64,000 bases of DNA from Deltaproteobacteria bacterium (GTDB lineage Bacteria > Myxococcota_A > UBA9160 > UBA4427), in NCBI GenBank assembly GCA_029261855.1, contig JAJDAN010000070.1, positions 62,001 to 126,000 on the forward strand, read 5' to 3'. A model generated the notes under the pieces. The model made no database searches. It saw only the letters and a program-made list of their open reading frames with translations, and had not been told where the DNA came from. The position numbers and the translations under genes are program-made. Every line of letters starts with the position of its first letter. Position 1 is the first letter of the stretch. This document shows positions 18,711-27,237 of the stretch, piece after piece.

Positions 18711-19748
18711 CTAGGCCAGCGCCACCTCGCGCAGCAGCGCGATGTCGTCGAGGGCGCGTCCGGCGCCGTGCACGACGGCGGTGTACGGGTCCTCGCTTCG
18801 CAGGATCGGGAGCTTCGTCTCCTGGCGCAGCAGGTGGTCCAGGTCGCGCAGCAGCGAGCCGCCGCCCACGAGCATGATGCCGCGGTCGACGATGTCGGCG
18901 GCGAGCTCCGGCGGGGTCTTCTCGAGGGTGAGGTGAACCGTCTCGACGATGGCGTGGATGGGCTCGATGAGCGCCTCGCGAACTTCCTCGCTCGTGGTGA
19001 CCACGACCTTCGGAATGCCCGCGACCAGGTCGCGGCCCTTGATCTCCATGGTCGTCGTCTTCGAGTCGGCGCTGGCGGTTCCGATGGTCATCTTGACCTG
19101 CTCGGCGGTCCGCTCCCCGATGAGCATGTTGTACTTGCGCTTCGTGTAGTTGATGATCGCCTCGTCCATCTTGTCACCGCCGGTGCGGATCGAGCGGGAC
19201 GTCACGATGCCAGAGAGCGAGATCACGGCCACGTCGGTGGTGCCGCCGCCGATGTCCACGACCATGTTGCCAGTCGGGGCCGTCACGTCGAGGCCAGCAC
19301 CGATGGCCGCGGCCATGGGCTCCTCGATGAGGAAGACTTCGCGCGCGCCAGCGGAGAGCGCGGACTCGCGAACCGCGCGCTTCTCGACACTGGTAATGCA
19401 GGGCGGGACGCAGATCACGATGCGCGGACGCGCCAGGGTGCGGCGGTTGTGGGCGCGGTGGATGAAGTAGCGAAGCATCGCCTCGGTGATCTCGAAGTCG
19501 GCGATGACGCCGTCCTTGATCGGACGGATGGCGGTGATCGATCCGGGGGTACGGCCGAGCATCTCCTTGGCTTCGTGCCCCACGGCGAGGACCTTCTGGC
19601 CACGCCCCTGCTTGTCTTCCATGACCGCCACGACCGACGGCTCGGAGCAGACGAGGCCCTTGCCCTTGCTGTAGACCAGGGTATTCGCTGTCCCGAGATC
19701 GATGGCGAGATCGTGGGAAAACCAGCCGGCAATCGCGTCCAGGAGCAT
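18711..19748 (-). CDS. mreB: Rod shape-determining protein MreB
   Basis: MreB is the bacterial actin that guides lateral-wall synthesis on the inner membrane. The 345 residues have the actin-type ATPase motifs: phosphate-1 DLAIDLGTANTLVY, phosphate-2 VVDIGGGTTDVAV and the adenosine motif IMLVGGGSLL. The N-terminal LLDAIAGWF is a likely amphipathic membrane anchor. GGAGGGA precedes the ATG. The usual mreC and mreD partners are not adjacent. It converges with the SCP2 gene; the 157-bp space between them holds no gene. Confidence 0.98.
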   Translation of the reverse strand: MLLDAIAGWFSHDLAIDLGTANTLVYSKGKGLVCSEPSVVAVMEDKQGRGQKVLAVGHEAKEMLGRTPGSITAIRPIKDGVIADFEITEAMLRYFIHRAHNRRTLARPRIVICVPPCITSVEKRAVRESALSAGAREVFLIEEPMAAAIGAGLDVTAPTGNMVVDIGGGTTDVAVISLSGIVTSRSIRTGGDKMDEAIINYTKRKYNMLIGERTAEQVKMTIGTASADSKTTTMEIKGRDLVAGIPKVVVTTSEEVREALIEPIHAIVETVHLTLEKTPPELAADIVDRGIMLVGGGSLLRDLDHLLRQETKLPILRSEDPYTAVVHGAGRALDDIALLREVALA

Positions 19749-19878: not shown

Positions 19879-20286
19879 CTACTCCGGGGCTGCGAGGGTC
19901 GGGCTGGCCTCGGCGGTCTCGCCCGTCTCGGAGACGGCTTCCTGCAGCAGGCCGAGCCGCACCGCGAGGTCATCCACATGCGTCCTCACGACGCCCATGC
20001 GGCGATTGGCGGCGCGGAGGCCCTCCTGGGCCGTCTGGAGATCAGACTCGAGGGACGAGACCTGGCCCGCCAGGGCATTGGCCCGGCCCCGCTCGAGCAC
20101 GTAGCCGACCCCGAGCACCAGGGCAGCGGCGAGCAGCAGGACGAGGATCCAGGGTCGCCGATTCGCTTCACCCGCCCGGCGGGCGGACGGCGCAACGGAC
20201 TGCGAGGTAGAGGCTTCCGGCGTTTCCGCCGTTTCCGGAACGGCGCGGAGCCCGGGGCCCGCGCTACCGGACGAGCCGACGGTCAC
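19879..20286 (-). CDS. Small membrane protein with coiled coil, last gene of proteasome operon
   Basis: A 135-residue protein starting at GTG 20286, which overlaps the pafA stop codon as GTGA. It has a flexible N-terminus (about 45 residues, Ser/Pro/Glu-rich), one strong transmembrane helix (PWILVLLLAAALVLGVGYVL, about residues 45-65) and a periplasmic coiled coil (residues 70-115) with alternating Leu/Val positions. The tail is acidic. The topology is like FtsB/FtsL-type bitopic proteins, but I see no specific family match. Its coupling to pafA suggests a link to pupylation, perhaps as a membrane adaptor or substrate. This is only inferred from position. Confidence 0.75.
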   Translation of the reverse strand: MTVGSSGSAGPGLRAVPETAETPEASTSQSVAPSARRAGEANRRPWILVLLLAAALVLGVGYVLERGRANALAGQVSSLESDLQTAQEGLRAANRRMGVVRTHVDDLAVRLGLLQEAVSETGETAEASPTLAAPE

Positions 20287-21689
20287 GACTGGATGACCAG
20301 CTTGGACAGGCTCGTCTTGCGCAGGTTCGTCTTCTGAATCGTGCGCACCAGCTCCGCCACCTTCTCCGTGTCGCTCTCGAAGGGGTTGTTGCAGATGACA
20401 CGCACATTGAGCAGGTTGCCGAGTCGGATGTTCGACCAGTCGAGGTCGTACTGGATCGAATGCTCCCGTGCGAGCTTGATGAACTCGCCGCGCATGCGCG
20501 CACGCGTGTCCGGCGGCGGCTCGGTCTTGGCCAGGTCGACCGCCTCGTCGTCGAAGAGGCGCTCGACGGCGCCGTTGCGTTCGAGCAGATAATAGAGACC
20601 GCGGTCCCGCTGGATGTCGTGGTACTGAAGATCCATCATGAACACCCGCGGATCGTTCCAGCCGGTGCCCTTCCGGTCGATGTATCCCTCGAGCATGTTG
20701 CGCTTGATGACCCAGTCGATCTGCCGGTTGAGCTTGTTCGGGTCGTCCACCAGGCAGTCGAGCACGTACTGCCACATGCCGACGGCCTGCTTGTGCTCGT
20801 CGCTGACCGGGTACTGCTCGATGTACTTCTGCGCCATCTCGCAGTACTCGCGCTGGATCTCGATGGGCGAGTACTCGCGCCCGTTGTCCAGGCGCAGGTG
20901 CCGCTTGCACGTGGTGTCGTAGGTGATGTCCTTGATGGCCTTCACCGGATTGCGCAGGGTGAAGTCCTTGTTGATGTAGTTGTCCTCGATCATCTGGAGG
21001 ACCACCGAGCAGGTACCGATCTTCAAGAAGTTCGTGTACTCGCTCATGTTCGAATCGCCAACGATCACGTGCAGACGGCGGTACTTCTCGCGGTCGGCGT
21101 GAGGCTCGTCTCGCGTATTGATGATCGAGCGGTCGTTCGTCGTGGTGCCCGAGATCTTCTGATAGATGTGTTGGGCGCGCTGGCTGACGCAATAGTGCAC
21201 GCCGTCCTGGGTCTGGAAGACCTTGCCCGCACCCGTGTAGATCTGGCGGGTGACCAGGAACGGAATCAGTTGCTCTGCCAGGTAGTAGAAGTCGACGTCG
21301 CGGTCCACGAGGTAGTTCTCGTGGCAGCCGTAGCTGTTGCCAACGAAGTCCGTGTTGTTCTTGAAGATCGAGAGCTTCCCGGGGATGCGCTCTTCGCGGA
21401 TCTTCTCTTCGGCGTAGGCCTGCAGGTCTTCGAGGATGCGCTCGCCGGCCTTGTCGTAGACGATCAGCTGCGACGGCGACGAACATTCGGGCGTCGCGTA
21501 TTCCGGGTGGCAGCCGGTGTCCTGGTAGAAGCGCGCACCGTTCTCGAGGAAGACGTTGAGGAAGTGCTCGGTGGTGATGAGCTTCTCGAAGAGGAAGCGA
21601 ATCGCCTTCTCGACGGGCAGCGTCTTGCGACCTTCCGGCGTGAAGATGATGCCGTACTCGGTCTCGACTCCGTAGATTCGCTTCTGCAA
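20283..21689 (-). CDS. pafA: Pup-protein ligase PafA
   Basis: PafA attaches Pup through its C-terminal glutamate to lysines of target proteins, using ATP. The protein begins with the diagnostic RIYGVETEYG motif (the Mg-binding acidic residues) and has RFYQDTGCHPEYATPEC with the catalytic Asp, then the shared KNNTDFVGNSYGCHENYL and RDEPHADREKYRRLHVI blocks. It lacks the extra Dop loop after the first motif, which separates it from Dop. I start it at TTG 21689, so the protein begins MQKRIYG like other PafA proteins (468 residues). An in-frame GTG at 21761 would add 24 residues. It lies about 100 bases after prcA and overlaps the downstream membrane-protein gene. Confidence 0.95.
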   Translation of the reverse strand: MQKRIYGVETEYGIIFTPEGRKTLPVEKAIRFLFEKLITTEHFLNVFLENGARFYQDTGCHPEYATPECSSPSQLIVYDKAGERILEDLQAYAEEKIREERIPGKLSIFKNNTDFVGNSYGCHENYLVDRDVDFYYLAEQLIPFLVTRQIYTGAGKVFQTQDGVHYCVSQRAQHIYQKISGTTTNDRSIINTRDEPHADREKYRRLHVIVGDSNMSEYTNFLKIGTCSVVLQMIEDNYINKDFTLRNPVKAIKDITYDTTCKRHLRLDNGREYSPIEIQREYCEMAQKYIEQYPVSDEHKQAVGMWQYVLDCLVDDPNKLNRQIDWVIKRNMLEGYIDRKGTGWNDPRVFMMDLQYHDIQRDRGLYYLLERNGAVERLFDDEAVDLAKTEPPPDTRARMRGEFIKLAREHSIQYDLDWSNIRLGNLLNVRVICNNPFESDTEKVAELVRTIQKTNLRKTSLSKLVIQS

Positions 21690-21792: not shown

Positions 21793-22491
21793 TCAACCGT
21801 CCAACATATCTTGTACCTGATCGGCGGAAAGGCGCACGAACTTTCGCCCCTCCCGCGCGCGATCCAGGATGCAGACCTCGAGGTCTTGCACACCAAGTGC
21901 CGAGCCACCGTTGCTGCCCGCCTCGAGCGCGCGCTTGGCCAACGAGGCGGCTTCCCCCGCGGGCAGACCCTCGTGGTTGCTCTCCTTCAGCACCCGCTCG
22001 ACGTCTTCGACGTTGCCGCCGATGGCGCAGAAGCCTTTGTGGTCGCTGATGAAGCCGTCGAACTTCACGCGGTAGATCACGTTGTTCTCGTGGCCGACGA
22101 AACGGTCGTCGCCGACCTCGACCACCAGTGCCTCGACTTCGAGCGGCTTCATTTCCCGGGTGAAGACCTCGCCGACCGCCTGGGAGTAGGCGTTGGCGAG
22201 ACTTCGCGCGCGCACGTCTTCGCGGCTGTACGCATAACCCTTCGTGTCGGCGAAGCGCACGCCGATCTTCCGGAGGTGATCGAACTCGCTGAACTTGCCG
22301 ACACCCGCGAAGGCGATGCGGTCATAGATCTCGCCGCACTTGGTCAGCGCGGTCGGGTTCTCGGCCATCAACAGGACACCGCCCTCGTACTCGAGTGCGA
22401 CGATCGACTTGCCCCGAGCGATGCCTTTGCGGGCGAACTCGGCCTTGTCGGCCATCAACTGCTCGGGCGAGACGTAGTAGGGCATGCTCAC
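21793..22491 (-). CDS. prcA: Proteasome alpha subunit
   Basis: PrcA forms the outer rings of the 20S core that gate entry. The 232 residues show the alpha-type N-terminal helix with YYVSPEQLMADKAEFARKGIARG, matching the gate segment that begins at the alpha-ring pore, followed by the sandwich fold (SIVALEYEGGVLLMAEN). It lacks a catalytic Thr, as expected for alpha subunits. The GTG start overlaps the prcB stop (GTGA), so expression of the two subunits is coupled; an ATG two codons later is possible. The lysine and hydrophobic patch that bind the Mpa tail cannot be verified without a model. Confidence 0.96.
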   Translation of the reverse strand: MSMPYYVSPEQLMADKAEFARKGIARGKSIVALEYEGGVLLMAENPTALTKCGEIYDRIAFAGVGKFSEFDHLRKIGVRFADTKGYAYSREDVRARSLANAYSQAVGEVFTREMKPLEVEALVVEVGDDRFVGHENNVIYRVKFDGFISDHKGFCAIGGNVEDVERVLKESNHEGLPAGEAASLAKRALEAGSNGGSALGVQDLEVCILDRAREGRKFVRLSADQVQDMLDG

Positions 22492-23300
22492 GACGCGTTT
22501 CCCCCCTCGCTGCCCGAGCGCCGTGCGAGGACGGCGCGGTACGCCGCCTCCACGTCCGCTTCAGAGACCTGGTCGATACCGGATTCAGTCGCACACATGA
22601 CGATCGGGAAGATGCCGCGTTGCAGGTCGACGCCGCCGGTCGCCCGGTCTTCATCGGCCGCTGCCGTCAGCGCCACCACCGCCGTGGAGATGGACTCGTC
22701 ACGACTCAGGCCCGCATGCCAGCCCTGCTTGAGCGACTCACGCGCGAACAGCCCGCCCGAGCCGGTCGCGTCGAACTCGGTCTCCTCGTAACGGCCGCCC
22801 GTGACGTCGAACTTCCAGAGGCGGCCCGCCTTGCGGCGCAGGTCGAAGCCGGCGAAGAGCGGAATCACGGCCAGGCCCTGCATCGCCGCCGGAAGGTTCT
22901 GGCGAATCATCTGTGAGAGCTTGTTGGCCTTGCCCTCGAGCTCGAGCGCTTCGCCCTCGATCTTCTCGTAATGCTCGAGTTCGACGGAGAGGATTCGCGC
23001 CATCTCGATCGACGGTCCGGCGGCCCCGGAGATCGCCATCATCGAATGGTTGTCGGTTCGAAAGACCTTCTGCACGTCGCGGGAAGCGACCTGCATCCCC
23101 GCCGTCGCGAGGCGATCTCCGGCGACGACGACGCCGCCGTCGAACTTGAAGGCGACCACGGTCGTGCCATGCGGCACCTGACTCGCGAGCCCCGCGAGGT
23201 CCCCAGGTTGACGGGACACGAGCTGAGGCAGGAGCTCCGGGCTATCCGTCTTCAACATCTCGAAGAAGCTCGAACCCTGGTAGCTGTTCCAGAACCGCAC
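22488..23300 (-). CDS. prcB: Proteasome beta subunit with propeptide
   Basis: PrcB is the catalytic subunit of the inner rings. The 270-residue precursor has a 45-residue propeptide ending in Gly45; autocatalytic cleavage frees Thr46 (GTTVVAFKFDGG), the N-terminal nucleophile. The family features VVVAGDRLATAG (with the Asp and Arg of the active site) and the GSGGLFARESLK segment are present. GTG 23300 is preceded by a GGGGGGATC stretch; ATG at residue 15 would shorten the propeptide. The gene follows pup by 50 bases and overlaps prcA. Confidence 0.97.
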   Translation of the reverse strand: MRFWNSYQGSSFFEMLKTDSPELLPQLVSRQPGDLAGLASQVPHGTTVVAFKFDGGVVVAGDRLATAGMQVASRDVQKVFRTDNHSMMAISGAAGPSIEMARILSVELEHYEKIEGEALELEGKANKLSQMIRQNLPAAMQGLAVIPLFAGFDLRRKAGRLWKFDVTGGRYEETEFDATGSGGLFARESLKQGWHAGLSRDESISTAVVALTAAADEDRATGGVDLQRGIFPIVMCATESGIDQVSEADVEAAYRAVLARRSGSEGGNAS

Positions 23301-23350: not shown

Positions 23351-23620
23351 CTACTGACCGCCGCGCTGGACGTAGTTCTTCACGAACTCTTCCGCGTTTT
23401 CCTCGAGGACCGCGTCGATCTCGTCCACGAGATTGTCCATCTCTTCCTTCAGCTCCTCGCCCTTCTTGGCGAGTTTTTGCCCGCCCTCGCCCTTGGCCTC
23501 GGCCTCTTCTCCGCCGCCGCCGCCCTTGGACTTGGTCTTTTGCGGGGAGTCGGCCGCCATGTAGAGCGGGAGATCCCGGGAGTCGGCTCGCTTGTCCTGC
23601 AGCTTCTGGATGATTCGCAT
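23351..23620 (-). CDS. pup: Prokaryotic ubiquitin-like protein Pup
   Basis: Pup is the disordered tag linked to doomed proteins. The C-terminal half is unmistakable: EIDAVLEENAEEFV and the end VQRGGQ. The terminal Gln means Dop must deamidate it before ligation. Two starts are possible. ATG 23560 gives a 69-residue protein of usual size (MAADSPQKTKS then a glycine run), but has no good ribosome site. ATG 23620 has AAAGGA six to seven bases upstream and adds 20 basic residues (MRIIQKLQDKR then ADSRDLPLY). I use the longer form (89 residues). The basic extension would be the part first threaded into Mpa. Confidence 0.93.
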   Translation of the reverse strand: MRIIQKLQDKRADSRDLPLYMAADSPQKTKSKGGGGGEEAEAKGEGGQKLAKKGEELKEEMDNLVDEIDAVLEENAEEFVKNYVQRGGQ

Positions 23621-23693
23621 GTTCTTTCCTTTCTCCCCCCCGTGTTCGATTCCCACTGGGGAGGGCTTCACTCGATGCCCTCGGTTCAGCGGC

Positions 23694-25178
23694 TCAGGCG
23701 CGGAGGCTCTGCATCAGGGCCTCGGCGGTAGACGATTGGTCGAGCAGCGCCTCGACGTGCGCGCGCGACCCCTTGAGCGGCTCAGCCATCATGACGCGCT
23801 TGATCGGCTCGTCGCCGTCTGCGAAGGATATGGAGTCCCAGTTCACCCCGAAGACCTGCGACGGGTAGCGGCGCAGGCACTCCCCGCGGAAGTACGCGCG
23901 CGTATCCTCCGGAGGCGTGTGGATGGCTGCGGTGATCTCTTCGTCGGTTGCGATGCGGACTGCCCTGCCTTGCCGTTCGAGCATGAAATATAGCCCCTTG
24001 TCGGGGCGGCTGTCGTGGTACTGCAGGTCGAGCATGGAGACCTGTGAGGACTGCCAATCGAGGCCCTTGCGGTCCATGAAGCTCTCGATCATCGCCTTCT
24101 TGATGACCCAATCGATCTTCTCGGACAGCTCCATCGGGTCGCGTTCCAGGGACTCGAGCGCGTCGCCCCACTTCGCGAGCACGTCGGGAACCCACTCCGG
24201 GTTTTCTCGACCCGAGGTGTAGGACAGCGCCAGGTCCAGGAATTCCATCTGGATCTGCACCGCGGTCATCTTCTTGCCGTTGTCCAGCTGGAGTTCGAGC
24301 TTGCAGTCCGGGTCGTGGGAGACCTGCTTGATGGCCTTGACCGGGTCCCGCAGCACGAGGTCCTTGTGGATCGCGCCGTCTTCGATCATCTGCAGCACGA
24401 TCGCCGTCGCGCCGTTTCGCAGATAGATCGTGTATTCGCTCATGTTCGAGTCGCCCACGATTACGTGTAGGCGGCGATACTTCTCGCGGTCCGCGTGAGG
24501 CTCGTCACGGGTATTGATGATCGGGCGCTTGACCATCGTATCGAGGGCGACCTCGGTCTCGAAGAAGTCCGCCCGCTGGCTCAGCTGGTAGTCGCACGGA
24601 TGCGAGCGGTTCTCGCTTCCGACCTTGCCGGCACCCGTGTAGACCTGCCGGGTGCTGAAGAACGGCAGCAGGTGCTCGACGATCTGCTTGAAGGAGGTGC
24701 GCCGGTCCATGAGGTAGTTCTCGTGGGACCCGTAGCTGTTTCCCTTGCGATCGCTGTTGTTCTTGTAGACGAGCATCGTCGCGCCGTCGGGCAACAGGCT
24801 GGTGGCCTCGCGACGGCTGATCTCGAGGATGCGCTCGCCCGCCTTCTCGTGGACGACGAGGTCGTGGGGATTGGTCACCTCCGGGCAGGAGTACTCGGGG
24901 TGCGCATGGTCCACGTAGTAGCGGGCGCCGTTGATGAGCGTCTTGTTACGGGCGATGTTCTCTTGCTGGTTCGGCGTGTACTTCTCGCCGTCCACCTGGA
25001 AACCGCGGGCATCCGCGAGGGGGTTCTCCTGGTCGTAGTCCCACAGGATCTCTCCCGCCGGGTCTTCGCGGTACGCGTTCACCAGGAGCACGCAGCTCGA
25101 GATCGGATCGAAGTCAGGGTCGTTCTTGACCATGATCCCGTACTCGATCTCGGTGCCCATGATGGACGGAATTGCCAT
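23694..25178 (-). CDS. dop: Pup deamidase/depupylase Dop
   Basis: Dop converts the Pup C-terminal Gln to Glu and also removes Pup from substrates. The 494-residue length matches the family (about 500). It opens MAIPSIMGTEIEYGIMV with the acidic metal-binding motif, and has YYVDHAHPEYSCPEV with the catalytic Asp. The long insertion between these two motifs (about residues 35-80) is the Dop loop, absent from PafA. The shared NNSDRKGNSYGSHENYLMD and DEPHADREKY blocks confirm the glutamine-synthetase-like fold. ATG 25178 is the only sensible start. It lies between mpa and pup in the operon. Confidence 0.96.
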   Translation of the reverse strand: MAIPSIMGTEIEYGIMVKNDPDFDPISSCVLLVNAYREDPAGEILWDYDQENPLADARGFQVDGEKYTPNQQENIARNKTLINGARYYVDHAHPEYSCPEVTNPHDLVVHEKAGERILEISRREATSLLPDGATMLVYKNNSDRKGNSYGSHENYLMDRRTSFKQIVEHLLPFFSTRQVYTGAGKVGSENRSHPCDYQLSQRADFFETEVALDTMVKRPIINTRDEPHADREKYRRLHVIVGDSNMSEYTIYLRNGATAIVLQMIEDGAIHKDLVLRDPVKAIKQVSHDPDCKLELQLDNGKKMTAVQIQMEFLDLALSYTSGRENPEWVPDVLAKWGDALESLERDPMELSEKIDWVIKKAMIESFMDRKGLDWQSSQVSMLDLQYHDSRPDKGLYFMLERQGRAVRIATDEEITAAIHTPPEDTRAYFRGECLRRYPSQVFGVNWDSISFADGDEPIKRVMMAEPLKGSRAHVEALLDQSSTAEALMQSLRA

Positions 25179-25293: not shown

Positions 25294-27237
25294 TTAGAGG
25301 TACTGCCCCTGGCCGGGCTGCACGGTCTCGATCGACGCTTCCTTTCGCTCCATGCCGGTGATGAGCGTCCGGACGTTGATGATGCGCTCACCCTTGCGGC
25401 CGGAGATCCGCGCCCAGTCGTCCGGGTTGGTGGTGTTCGGGAGATCCTCGTTCTCCTTGAACTCCTCCCGCACCGACGTTGCCAGGTCGTCCATGGTGAT
25501 CCCGCGCTCCCCGTCCTCGATGAAGCGCTTCACCGCCTTGCGCTTGGCGCGCGCGACGATGCTCTCGATCATGGCTCCGCTGGCGAAGTCCTTGAAGTAG
25601 AAGATCTCGCGCTCGCCCTTGGCGTAGGTCACCTCGAGGAACTTGTTCTCCTCTCCGGTGCTGTACATGCCCTCGACGAGCATCTCGATCGTGCCGTGAC
25701 AGGCCTTCTCGGCGTCGCTGCCGTACTTGATCAGCAGCTCCTGGTTCAGCGGCAGGTTCGGCGTGAGATACTTGGTGAAGATCTCCTTGGCGGCACCCTC
25801 GTCCGGGCGCTGCACCTTGATCTTCAGATCGAGACGGCCGGGGCGCAGCACCGCCGGATCGATCAGATCCTGCCGGTTCGAGGCACCGATCACGATCACG
25901 TTCTCGAGCGACTCGACACCGTCGATCTCCGCCAGGAACTGGGCGACCACGGTGGCCTCCATGTCCGAGGAGATGCCCGAGCCGCGCATGCGGAAGAGCG
26001 AGTCCATCTCGTCGAAGAAGATGACCACCGGGACGTCCTGGCTGGCCTTCTCCCGCGCCTTCTTGAACACCTCTCGCAGCTTGCTCTCGGTCTCGCCCAC
26101 GTACTTGTTCAGGAGCTCGGGCCCCTTCACGTTCAGGAAGTACGGTGTGGTCGCGCGACCGGTTCGCTTCTCGATGTTCTTGGCGAGACTGTTCGCCACC
26201 GCCTTCGCGATCAGCGTCTTGCCGCAGCCGGGCGGGCCGTAGAGCAGGATGCCCTTGGGCGGGCGCAGCTCGTACTCGGCAAAGATCTCCGGGTGCAGGT
26301 AGGGCAGCTCGACCGAGTCCCGCAGGGCCTCGATCTGGTCGCCCAGGCCGCCGATCTGGTCGTAGGTGATGTCCGGGATCTCCTCGAGGACGACCTCCTC
26401 GACCGCCGACTTCGGCATCTTCTCGAATGCGTACTGGGTGCGCGGATCCACCAGCAGGTGGTCGCTCACGCGGATCGTCTCACTGCGGAGCCGTTCGGAG
26501 ATCGTGACGACCTTCTCGTCGTCGGTGTGGCCGAGCACGATCACCCTGTTCTCGCTCACGAAGTCGACGACGGTGCAGACCTCACCGCGCTGGGTGTAGC
26601 CCGCCGCCTCGATCACGTTGAACGCCTCGTTGAGGAGGACGAGCTGGCCCTCTTCCAGCTGGAAGGGGTCGATGTTCGGGTGCACGTTGACGCGCATGGG
26701 CCGGCCGTCGACCAGCAGCTCCGAGGTCCCGTCCTTGTTCGCCCGGGTGAAGATCCCGTAGGTGTTCGGAGGCGCGCAGAGCTTGTCGACTTCTTCCTTC
26801 AGCAGCTCGATCTGCTGCTTCGATTCCTGCAGCATGCCGACCAACTTCTCGTTCTGGCGCTCCTGGTCGTGGACCTGGTTGCGCGTCGACTCGTAGCGCC
26901 GTCGCAGTGTCTCGTAGTCCGCGAGAACGCGGTCGAGAGAGCGTCTGAACTCCACCGAGTCGCTTCCGAAGAAACGAATCGCGTCCTGGAGGTGCTCGAC
27001 CTCACTGGCGGGACTGCGTTCTTCTCGGCGTCCGTCTCGCACGTCCTGGTCTCCGCGTCTGTCTCCGCGCACGTCGTCCTCCCCCCGTCGGATCTCGCGC
27101 TCGCCACTGAACTCTACCTGCTCCGGCTCGATGCCGAATTCATCGCCACTTCGCGGTCCCGCGGGCGCGATCCTTCCGATCATGTCCCGCATGAAGCCCC
27201 GACGACCCGATCCAGATCCCGAATCATGCTCGCTCAT
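25294..27237 (-). CDS. mpa: Proteasome-activating AAA+ ATPase Mpa/ARC
   Basis: Mpa unfolds pupylated proteins and feeds them to the 20S core. The 647 residues run: charged N-terminal extension (1-75), coiled coil that captures Pup (about 100-155), tandem OB folds (155-275), then the AAA+ domain with Walker A GPPGCGKT at 334-341, the pore-loop segment NKYVGE, and Walker B VVIFFDEMDS near 404-412. It ends in GQYL, the C-terminal tail that docks into the alpha-ring pockets, as in Mycobacterium. The N-terminal extension is about 40 residues longer than in the mycobacterial protein and is rich in Arg/Asp. GAGGAGAG precedes ATG 27237. Confidence 0.97.
   Translation of the reverse strand: MSEHDSGSGSGRRGFMRDMIGRIAPAGPRSGDEFGIEPEQVEFSGEREIRRGEDDVRGDRRGDQDVRDGRREERSPASEVEHLQDAIRFFGSDSVEFRRSLDRVLADYETLRRRYESTRNQVHDQERQNEKLVGMLQESKQQIELLKEEVDKLCAPPNTYGIFTRANKDGTSELLVDGRPMRVNVHPNIDPFQLEEGQLVLLNEAFNVIEAAGYTQRGEVCTVVDFVSENRVIVLGHTDDEKVVTISERLRSETIRVSDHLLVDPRTQYAFEKMPKSAVEEVVLEEIPDITYDQIGGLGDQIEALRDSVELPYLHPEIFAEYELRPPKGILLYGPPGCGKTLIAKAVANSLAKNIEKRTGRATTPYFLNVKGPELLNKYVGETESKLREVFKKAREKASQDVPVVIFFDEMDSLFRMRGSGISSDMEATVVAQFLAEIDGVESLENVIVIGASNRQDLIDPAVLRPGRLDLKIKVQRPDEGAAKEIFTKYLTPNLPLNQELLIKYGSDAEKACHGTIEMLVEGMYSTGEENKFLEVTYAKGEREIFYFKDFASGAMIESIVARAKRKAVKRFIEDGERGITMDDLATSVREEFKENEDLPNTTNPDDWARISGRKGERIINVRTLITGMERKEASIETVQPGQGQYL

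Follow-up and report, generated by a model that had tools for sequence, protein, structure and literature searches.

Directly past pafA, on the minus strand of the window (the 64,000-nucleotide stretch of DNA analysed here), lies a real, conserved gene, here called X. The evidence shows or strongly indicates that its product has a disordered cytoplasmic tail with a PxLxxV-like motif, an N-in transmembrane (TM) helix and, in the periplasm, an unbroken coiled coil of 60 residues. Our preferred reading, held tentatively and with slightly less than even confidence, is that X acts as an inner-membrane scaffold, dispensable and specific to its lineage, and is made with the Pup-proteasome operon without being a core part of pupylation. 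To our knowledge, Pup-proteasome systems have been studied almost solely in Actinobacteria. Our literature search found no paper on X, or on the Pup locus in UBA9160, the Myxococcota class to which the 6.96 Mb genome of the window belongs.

The Pup locus and the architecture of X

The genes of the locus follow one another on the minus strand in the order mpa, dop, pup, prcB, prcA, pafA, X and mreB2 (Table 1), and its core order and families are those of the actinobacterial locus mpa-dop-pup-prcB-prcA-pafA. The actual start of pup probably lies inside the listed ORF. Past mreB2 there are convergent scp2-like, mltG and ruvX-like genes.

Table 1. Features of the Pup-proteasome locus and of protein X (positions within the window)
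Feature	Position	Strand	Basis
mpa/ARC ATPase, ends GQYL	25294..27237	-	AAA and proteasomal ATPase OB domains
dop (deamidase/depupylase)	23694..25178	-	Pup_ligase family PF03136; start from codon bias
pup, ends GGQ	23351..23671	-	Pup PF05639
prcB	22488..23300	-	Proteasome PF00227
prcA	21793..22491	-	Proteasome PF00227
pafA (Pup ligase)	20283..21689	-	Pup_ligase PF03136, E 2e-152; start from codon bias
GTGA overlap, X start/pafA stop	20283..20286	-	Sequence
Gene X, 135-aa bitopic coiled-coil protein	19879..20286	-	ORF, codon bias, dN/dS, homologues in 63 class genomes
X: N-terminal cytoplasmic tail, disordered, residues 1-44	20155..20286	-	pLDDT about 52-60; positive-inside rule
X: tail motif PGLRAV, residues 11-16	20239..20256	-	HMM information peak, 52 sequences
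X: transmembrane helix, residues 46-64	20095..20151	-	Hydropathy 2.65; helix in AlphaFold model
X: periplasmic coiled coil, residues 65-127, near-invariant R101	19906..20094	-	Heptads, heptad-length indels, modelled helix to 127
mreB2, second MreB, 130 nt past X	18711..19748	-	MreB_Mbl PF06723; second genome copy; separate clade

The start codon GTG of X (20286-20284) and the stop codon TGA of pafA (20285-20283) share the letters GTGA, as the preliminary description of this DNA had stated. The start is backed by a same-genus homologue (MTVGSSGSAGPGLRAVPE vs MSAGSPPGGRGELRAVPD), codon usage is gene-like, and dN/dS values of 0.27-0.57 in ten homologue pairs indicate purifying selection. Homologues were collected by synteny first and then by HMM; Pfam, NCBIfam and PDB searches returned chance coiled-coil matches alone and placed X in no known family.

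That X would be the last gene of the operon, as first described, is probably incorrect, as a co-directional mreB begins 130 nt downstream and the gap holds no terminator-like site. Promoter and terminator scans of the locus found nothing. With this neighbour, which had been missed, adjoining X, the conserved block becomes pafA-X-mreB2. The gene is a class-specific paralogue, forming a clade separate from that of the canonical mreB1; the latter lies elsewhere (G000:C83:22019-23044) and has an mreC-like gene behind it, whereas mreB2 is followed by neither mreC nor mreD.

The proposal of a single-pass protein with a periplasmic coiled coil is borne out by hydropathy, structure prediction and charge counts, which give one TM segment followed by a heptad rod. 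In the single-chain AlphaFold model, residues 46-127 form one unbroken helix, and pLDDT exceeds 90 for most of its length. Lysines and arginines total 145 ahead of the TM segment vs 90 behind it across 52 homologues, favouring an N-in orientation, and the positive-inside rule gives this orientation in 34 of the 52, with 12 ties. Hydrophobic residues recur at positions 72, 76, 79, 83, 90, 97, 100, 104, 107, 111, 114 and 118, and most heptad core sites are hydrophobic in 78-100% of homologues. Length differences within the coiled coil are nearly all multiples of seven; the distance from L72 to R101 is 29 or 36 residues and that from R101 to L114 is 6, 13, 20 or 27. X thus has the 3-4 heptad pattern and in-phase indels expected of a parallel coiled coil. 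R101 corresponds to HMM position 93, which is arginine in 43 of 46 homologues. The family tail motif occupies HMM positions 7-12; information content is highest at its P7, L9 and V12 and in the distal part of the coiled coil, which places much of the constraint on X in the periplasm.

Distribution of X and a possible membrane tether

The tight coupling to pafA had been taken as a sign of a partner or membrane tether for pupylation. On this proposal, the tail of X would recruit PafA, Dop or Mpa-20S, and membrane-associated proteins would be tagged or degraded there. We regard it as possible but doubtful, and do not prefer it to an envelope scaffold partnered by MreB2 or by another protein.

Several observations speak for such a tether. 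In 28 of 52 homologues X overlaps pafA or follows it within 20 nt. The family of the window's genome usually has 100-300 nt between the two genes, which makes the GTGA overlap atypical there. The protein encoded in the window contains no lysine, which rules out pupylation of its own side chains. There is also a precedent, since Iyer et al. (2008), who described Pup in Plesiocystis and other non-actinobacteria, reported Pup ligases of Plesiocystis and Rhodopirellula that contain an insertion of four TM segments and have a membrane protein encoded next to them (PMC2588565). In both settings a diderm Pup ligase is encoded beside a membrane-protein gene and a membrane role has been proposed; in the Plesiocystis/Rhodopirellula type, however, the TM segments are inside the ligase and proteasome neighbours are missing, whereas the window has a full proteasome locus and the TM segment in a separate protein. 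The PafA of the window is not itself a ligase of that four-TM type, as its residues 25-473 align with the solved PafA 4b0t without a long insert.

The distribution of X argues partly against the tether. Our sample of relatives comprised 98 genomes, of which the 78 from the class were scored. X is present in 63 of them (HMM, E below 1e-13) and directly past pafA in 60, sharing its operon as a core Pup-proteasome component would; one of the other three has a contig break, and two carry an opposite-strand gene between pafA and X, 6-phosphogluconate-dehydrogenase-like by translation in G047 and judged hydrolase/lipase-like in G052. A core component would also be expected wherever the Pup locus is present, whereas X is missing from 15 of the 78 class genomes, all of which keep pafA, and from 11 genomes of other phyla. 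X is therefore dispensable. Some of the 15 belong to the window's own family, and it was just such an absence from close relatives with the same operon that the preliminary description had named as evidence against its proposal. Seven X-less loci were inspected for a decayed copy between pafA and mreB2, and none turned up.

Across a phylum sample of 284 genomes, X occurs in 44, all 44 with pafA, while 12 have pafA without X and none of the 228 without pafA has X. This confinement is consistent with the tether, but it is confounded by descent because both genes are class-specific within the phylum.

Dop and PafA occur sporadically in Nitrospinae, Proteobacteria and others (PMC7947786). Outside the class we compared eight diderm loci (three Nitrospinota, four Tectomicrobia/Entotheonella-like and one Nitrospiraceae) and six from Actinobacteria. 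Within the limits of the contigs, all share the core Pup gene set and its order, and all have genes other than X past pafA. Judged by sequence, these are a ddl-like (D-Ala-D-Ala ligase) gene directly past pafA in the Tectomicrobia/Entotheonella-like loci (L184, L186, L187 and L198), and signal-peptidase and tatA-like genes in Actinobacteria. One Nitrospinota locus (L183) likewise has a D-Ala-D-Ala ligase-like gene past pafA. Whole-genome searches of 11 of these Pup-bearing genomes, from Nitrospinota, Tectomicrobia/Entotheonella, Nitrospiraceae and Actinobacteria, found no full-length X. The actinobacterial loci examined thus lack such a gene, as first supposed; the homologues that the tether proposal anticipated beside pafA in other Gram-negative Pup genomes are absent from the diderm genomes examined.

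Two irregularities in the pafA complement were seen. Members of genus g15 (G032, G065, G067, G071 and G075) mostly have 4-6 PafA matches vs the usual two; some of the surplus may come from split contigs and the rest from extra Pup-ligase-family genes. On contig C107 of G076 (L068/L122), a divergent PafA (75% identity) is encoded without X and beside a gene on the other strand that looks transposase-like (of IS256 type by eye); this pafA is possibly a foreign or displaced copy.

There are also X-like genes away from pafA. Three second-tier HMM matches with a similar tail motif (G035:C68, G066:C152 and G056:C488) look like true distant paralogues; others, judged by sequence, resemble an outer-membrane protein or a coiled-coil-bearing M23 peptidase. 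Standalone X-like bitopic coiled-coil genes far from pafA (L214 3369-3671, L215 5696-6208 and L213 10402-11211) have similar tail motifs, e.g., SIVDEATP and LEVVGDEA. The window's own genome holds a weak X-like gene of the same architecture (G000:C43:51106-51456; L079 3565-4140, minus strand; E 1.8e-8), near purA-like and serA-like genes.

Synteny, pafA and mreB2

That a gene shares its operon with pafA says little about a Pup role: mycobacterial pafBC do so, but pupylation is unaltered when they are deleted, and what they regulate is DNA repair (PMC5656591). This precedent counts against the tether. In mycobacteria pafBC follow pafA, whereas in the window X does, and then mreB2. X is not a PafB or PafC: these are winged-helix regulators, whereas X has no winged-helix DNA-binding domain match and consists of a TM segment and a coiled coil.

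The retention of X beside pafA must also be compared with that of its surroundings. In the class, 49 loci extend at least 4.5 kb past pafA; X is retained in 38 of these, mreB2 in 41, and mltG, which is unrelated and lies on the other strand, in 37. As the block is syntenic and mltG is kept as often as X, repeated co-location of X and pafA, the check that the preliminary description had suggested, does not discriminate between explanations. The linkage is real and lineage-limited, and it stands at the synteny background. Of the original suggestion there remains a conserved, class-wide linkage to pafA; a general link to Pup in Gram-negative bacteria does not, and retention no better than that of mltG weakens what it would imply.

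The same figures suit a neutral-passenger view, in which X, a small and unrelated envelope protein, stays beside pafA only because this block is rarely rearranged. Its evolution is about seven times faster than that of PafA (mean tree distance 3.09 vs 0.46), and its putative distant paralogues lie in unrelated places, as this view would allow. We nevertheless consider it unlikely, since the frequent overlap or near-overlap with pafA, and persistence beside pafA when other neighbours have moved, exceed what a passenger needs.

A second partner to weigh is MreB2, for which X might act as MreC or RodZ does for canonical MreB. MreC has a short N-in tail, one TM segment and a periplasmic coiled coil. 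X shares this topology, with its coiled coil likewise close to the membrane, and both genes lie near an mreB: of the 66 loci that extend far enough, 54 have mreB2 downstream, as do 45 of the 49 such loci with X. X, however, sits upstream of mreB2 and is dispensable, whereas mreC sits downstream of mreB, in this genome behind the separate mreB1. X and mreB2 are both confined to the class and co-occur in 61 of the 63 X genomes, and the lack of mreC and mreD behind mreB2 also speaks for such a partner. Four of the five genomes with pafA but no mreB2 also lack X. These are reduced genomes, and a single block deletion could account for the co-loss. The association of X with mreB2 presence has a Fisher p of 0.011, uncorrected for phylogeny, and one locus at a contig end was scored there as having X but no mreB2.

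Against a dedicated MreB2 partner, 11 genomes have mreB2 without X, G006 has X without mreB2, and neither MreC (PF04085) nor RodZ is among the listed Pfam/NCBIfam matches of 46 members, which also sets X apart from MreC itself. Weighing these points, we rate this reading as improbable. In the other classes of Myxococcota, a search ahead of the canonical mreB gave no X-like gene. FtsL/FtsB-type divisome proteins resemble X in their short tail, single TM segment and periplasmic coiled coil; X was rejected as one of them, as just 3 of 46 members reach about 1e-3 with the FtsL model (best E 0.0014, which falls short of the FtsL/DivIC cut-off), the gene neighbourhood is wrong and 15 genomes lack X.

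Rearranged loci point both ways. When mreB2 is lost (G006), or genes are inserted between X and mreB2 (G033 and family f11), X is still beside pafA, an adjacency that speaks for the tether; in G047 and G052, where a foreign gene splits pafA from X, X stays with mreB2. Spacers between X and mreB2 are at least 74 nt in those checked. Partial mirror-tree correlations over 34 loci are weak, come from several tests and carry little weight: X vs dop gives 0.285 (p 0.002), in line with a tether, and X vs mreB2 0.23 (p 0.023), dop being as high as mreB2, whereas X vs pafA shows no correlation, which does not fit a tether.

X as a proposed envelope scaffold

For the scaffold that we prefer, the rod of X would self-associate in parallel and cluster the cytoplasmic tails at the membrane, where the tail motif could dock a cytoplasmic partner. 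This partner would most likely be an envelope factor, with MreB2 next door the single best candidate, and co-expression with pafA may reflect shared conditions and not a shared reaction. In favour of the scaffold, X shares with mreB2 its restriction to the class, pafA being found without X elsewhere, and much of the conservation of X is periplasmic, which suits a tether less well. Against it, X lies nearer to pafA than to mreB2, and each of X and mreB2 is found without the other, as in G006 and the 11 genomes above. As a dedicated MreB2 partner is a special case of the scaffold, the degrees of confidence given here overlap and need not sum to one.

For other studies of gene neighbourhoods, we recommend caution: adjacency to pafA here sits at the synteny background, and by itself does not decide the role of X. 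Across one whole class of Myxococcota, an otherwise standard Pup operon is extended here by an uncharacterised family of membrane proteins and by a second MreB. That X docks PafA or the Pup-proteasome together with MreB2 at the inner membrane seems to us quite improbable; if it were true, diderm Myxococcota would have a membrane- or cytoskeleton-associated pupylation site, as in no described Pup system.
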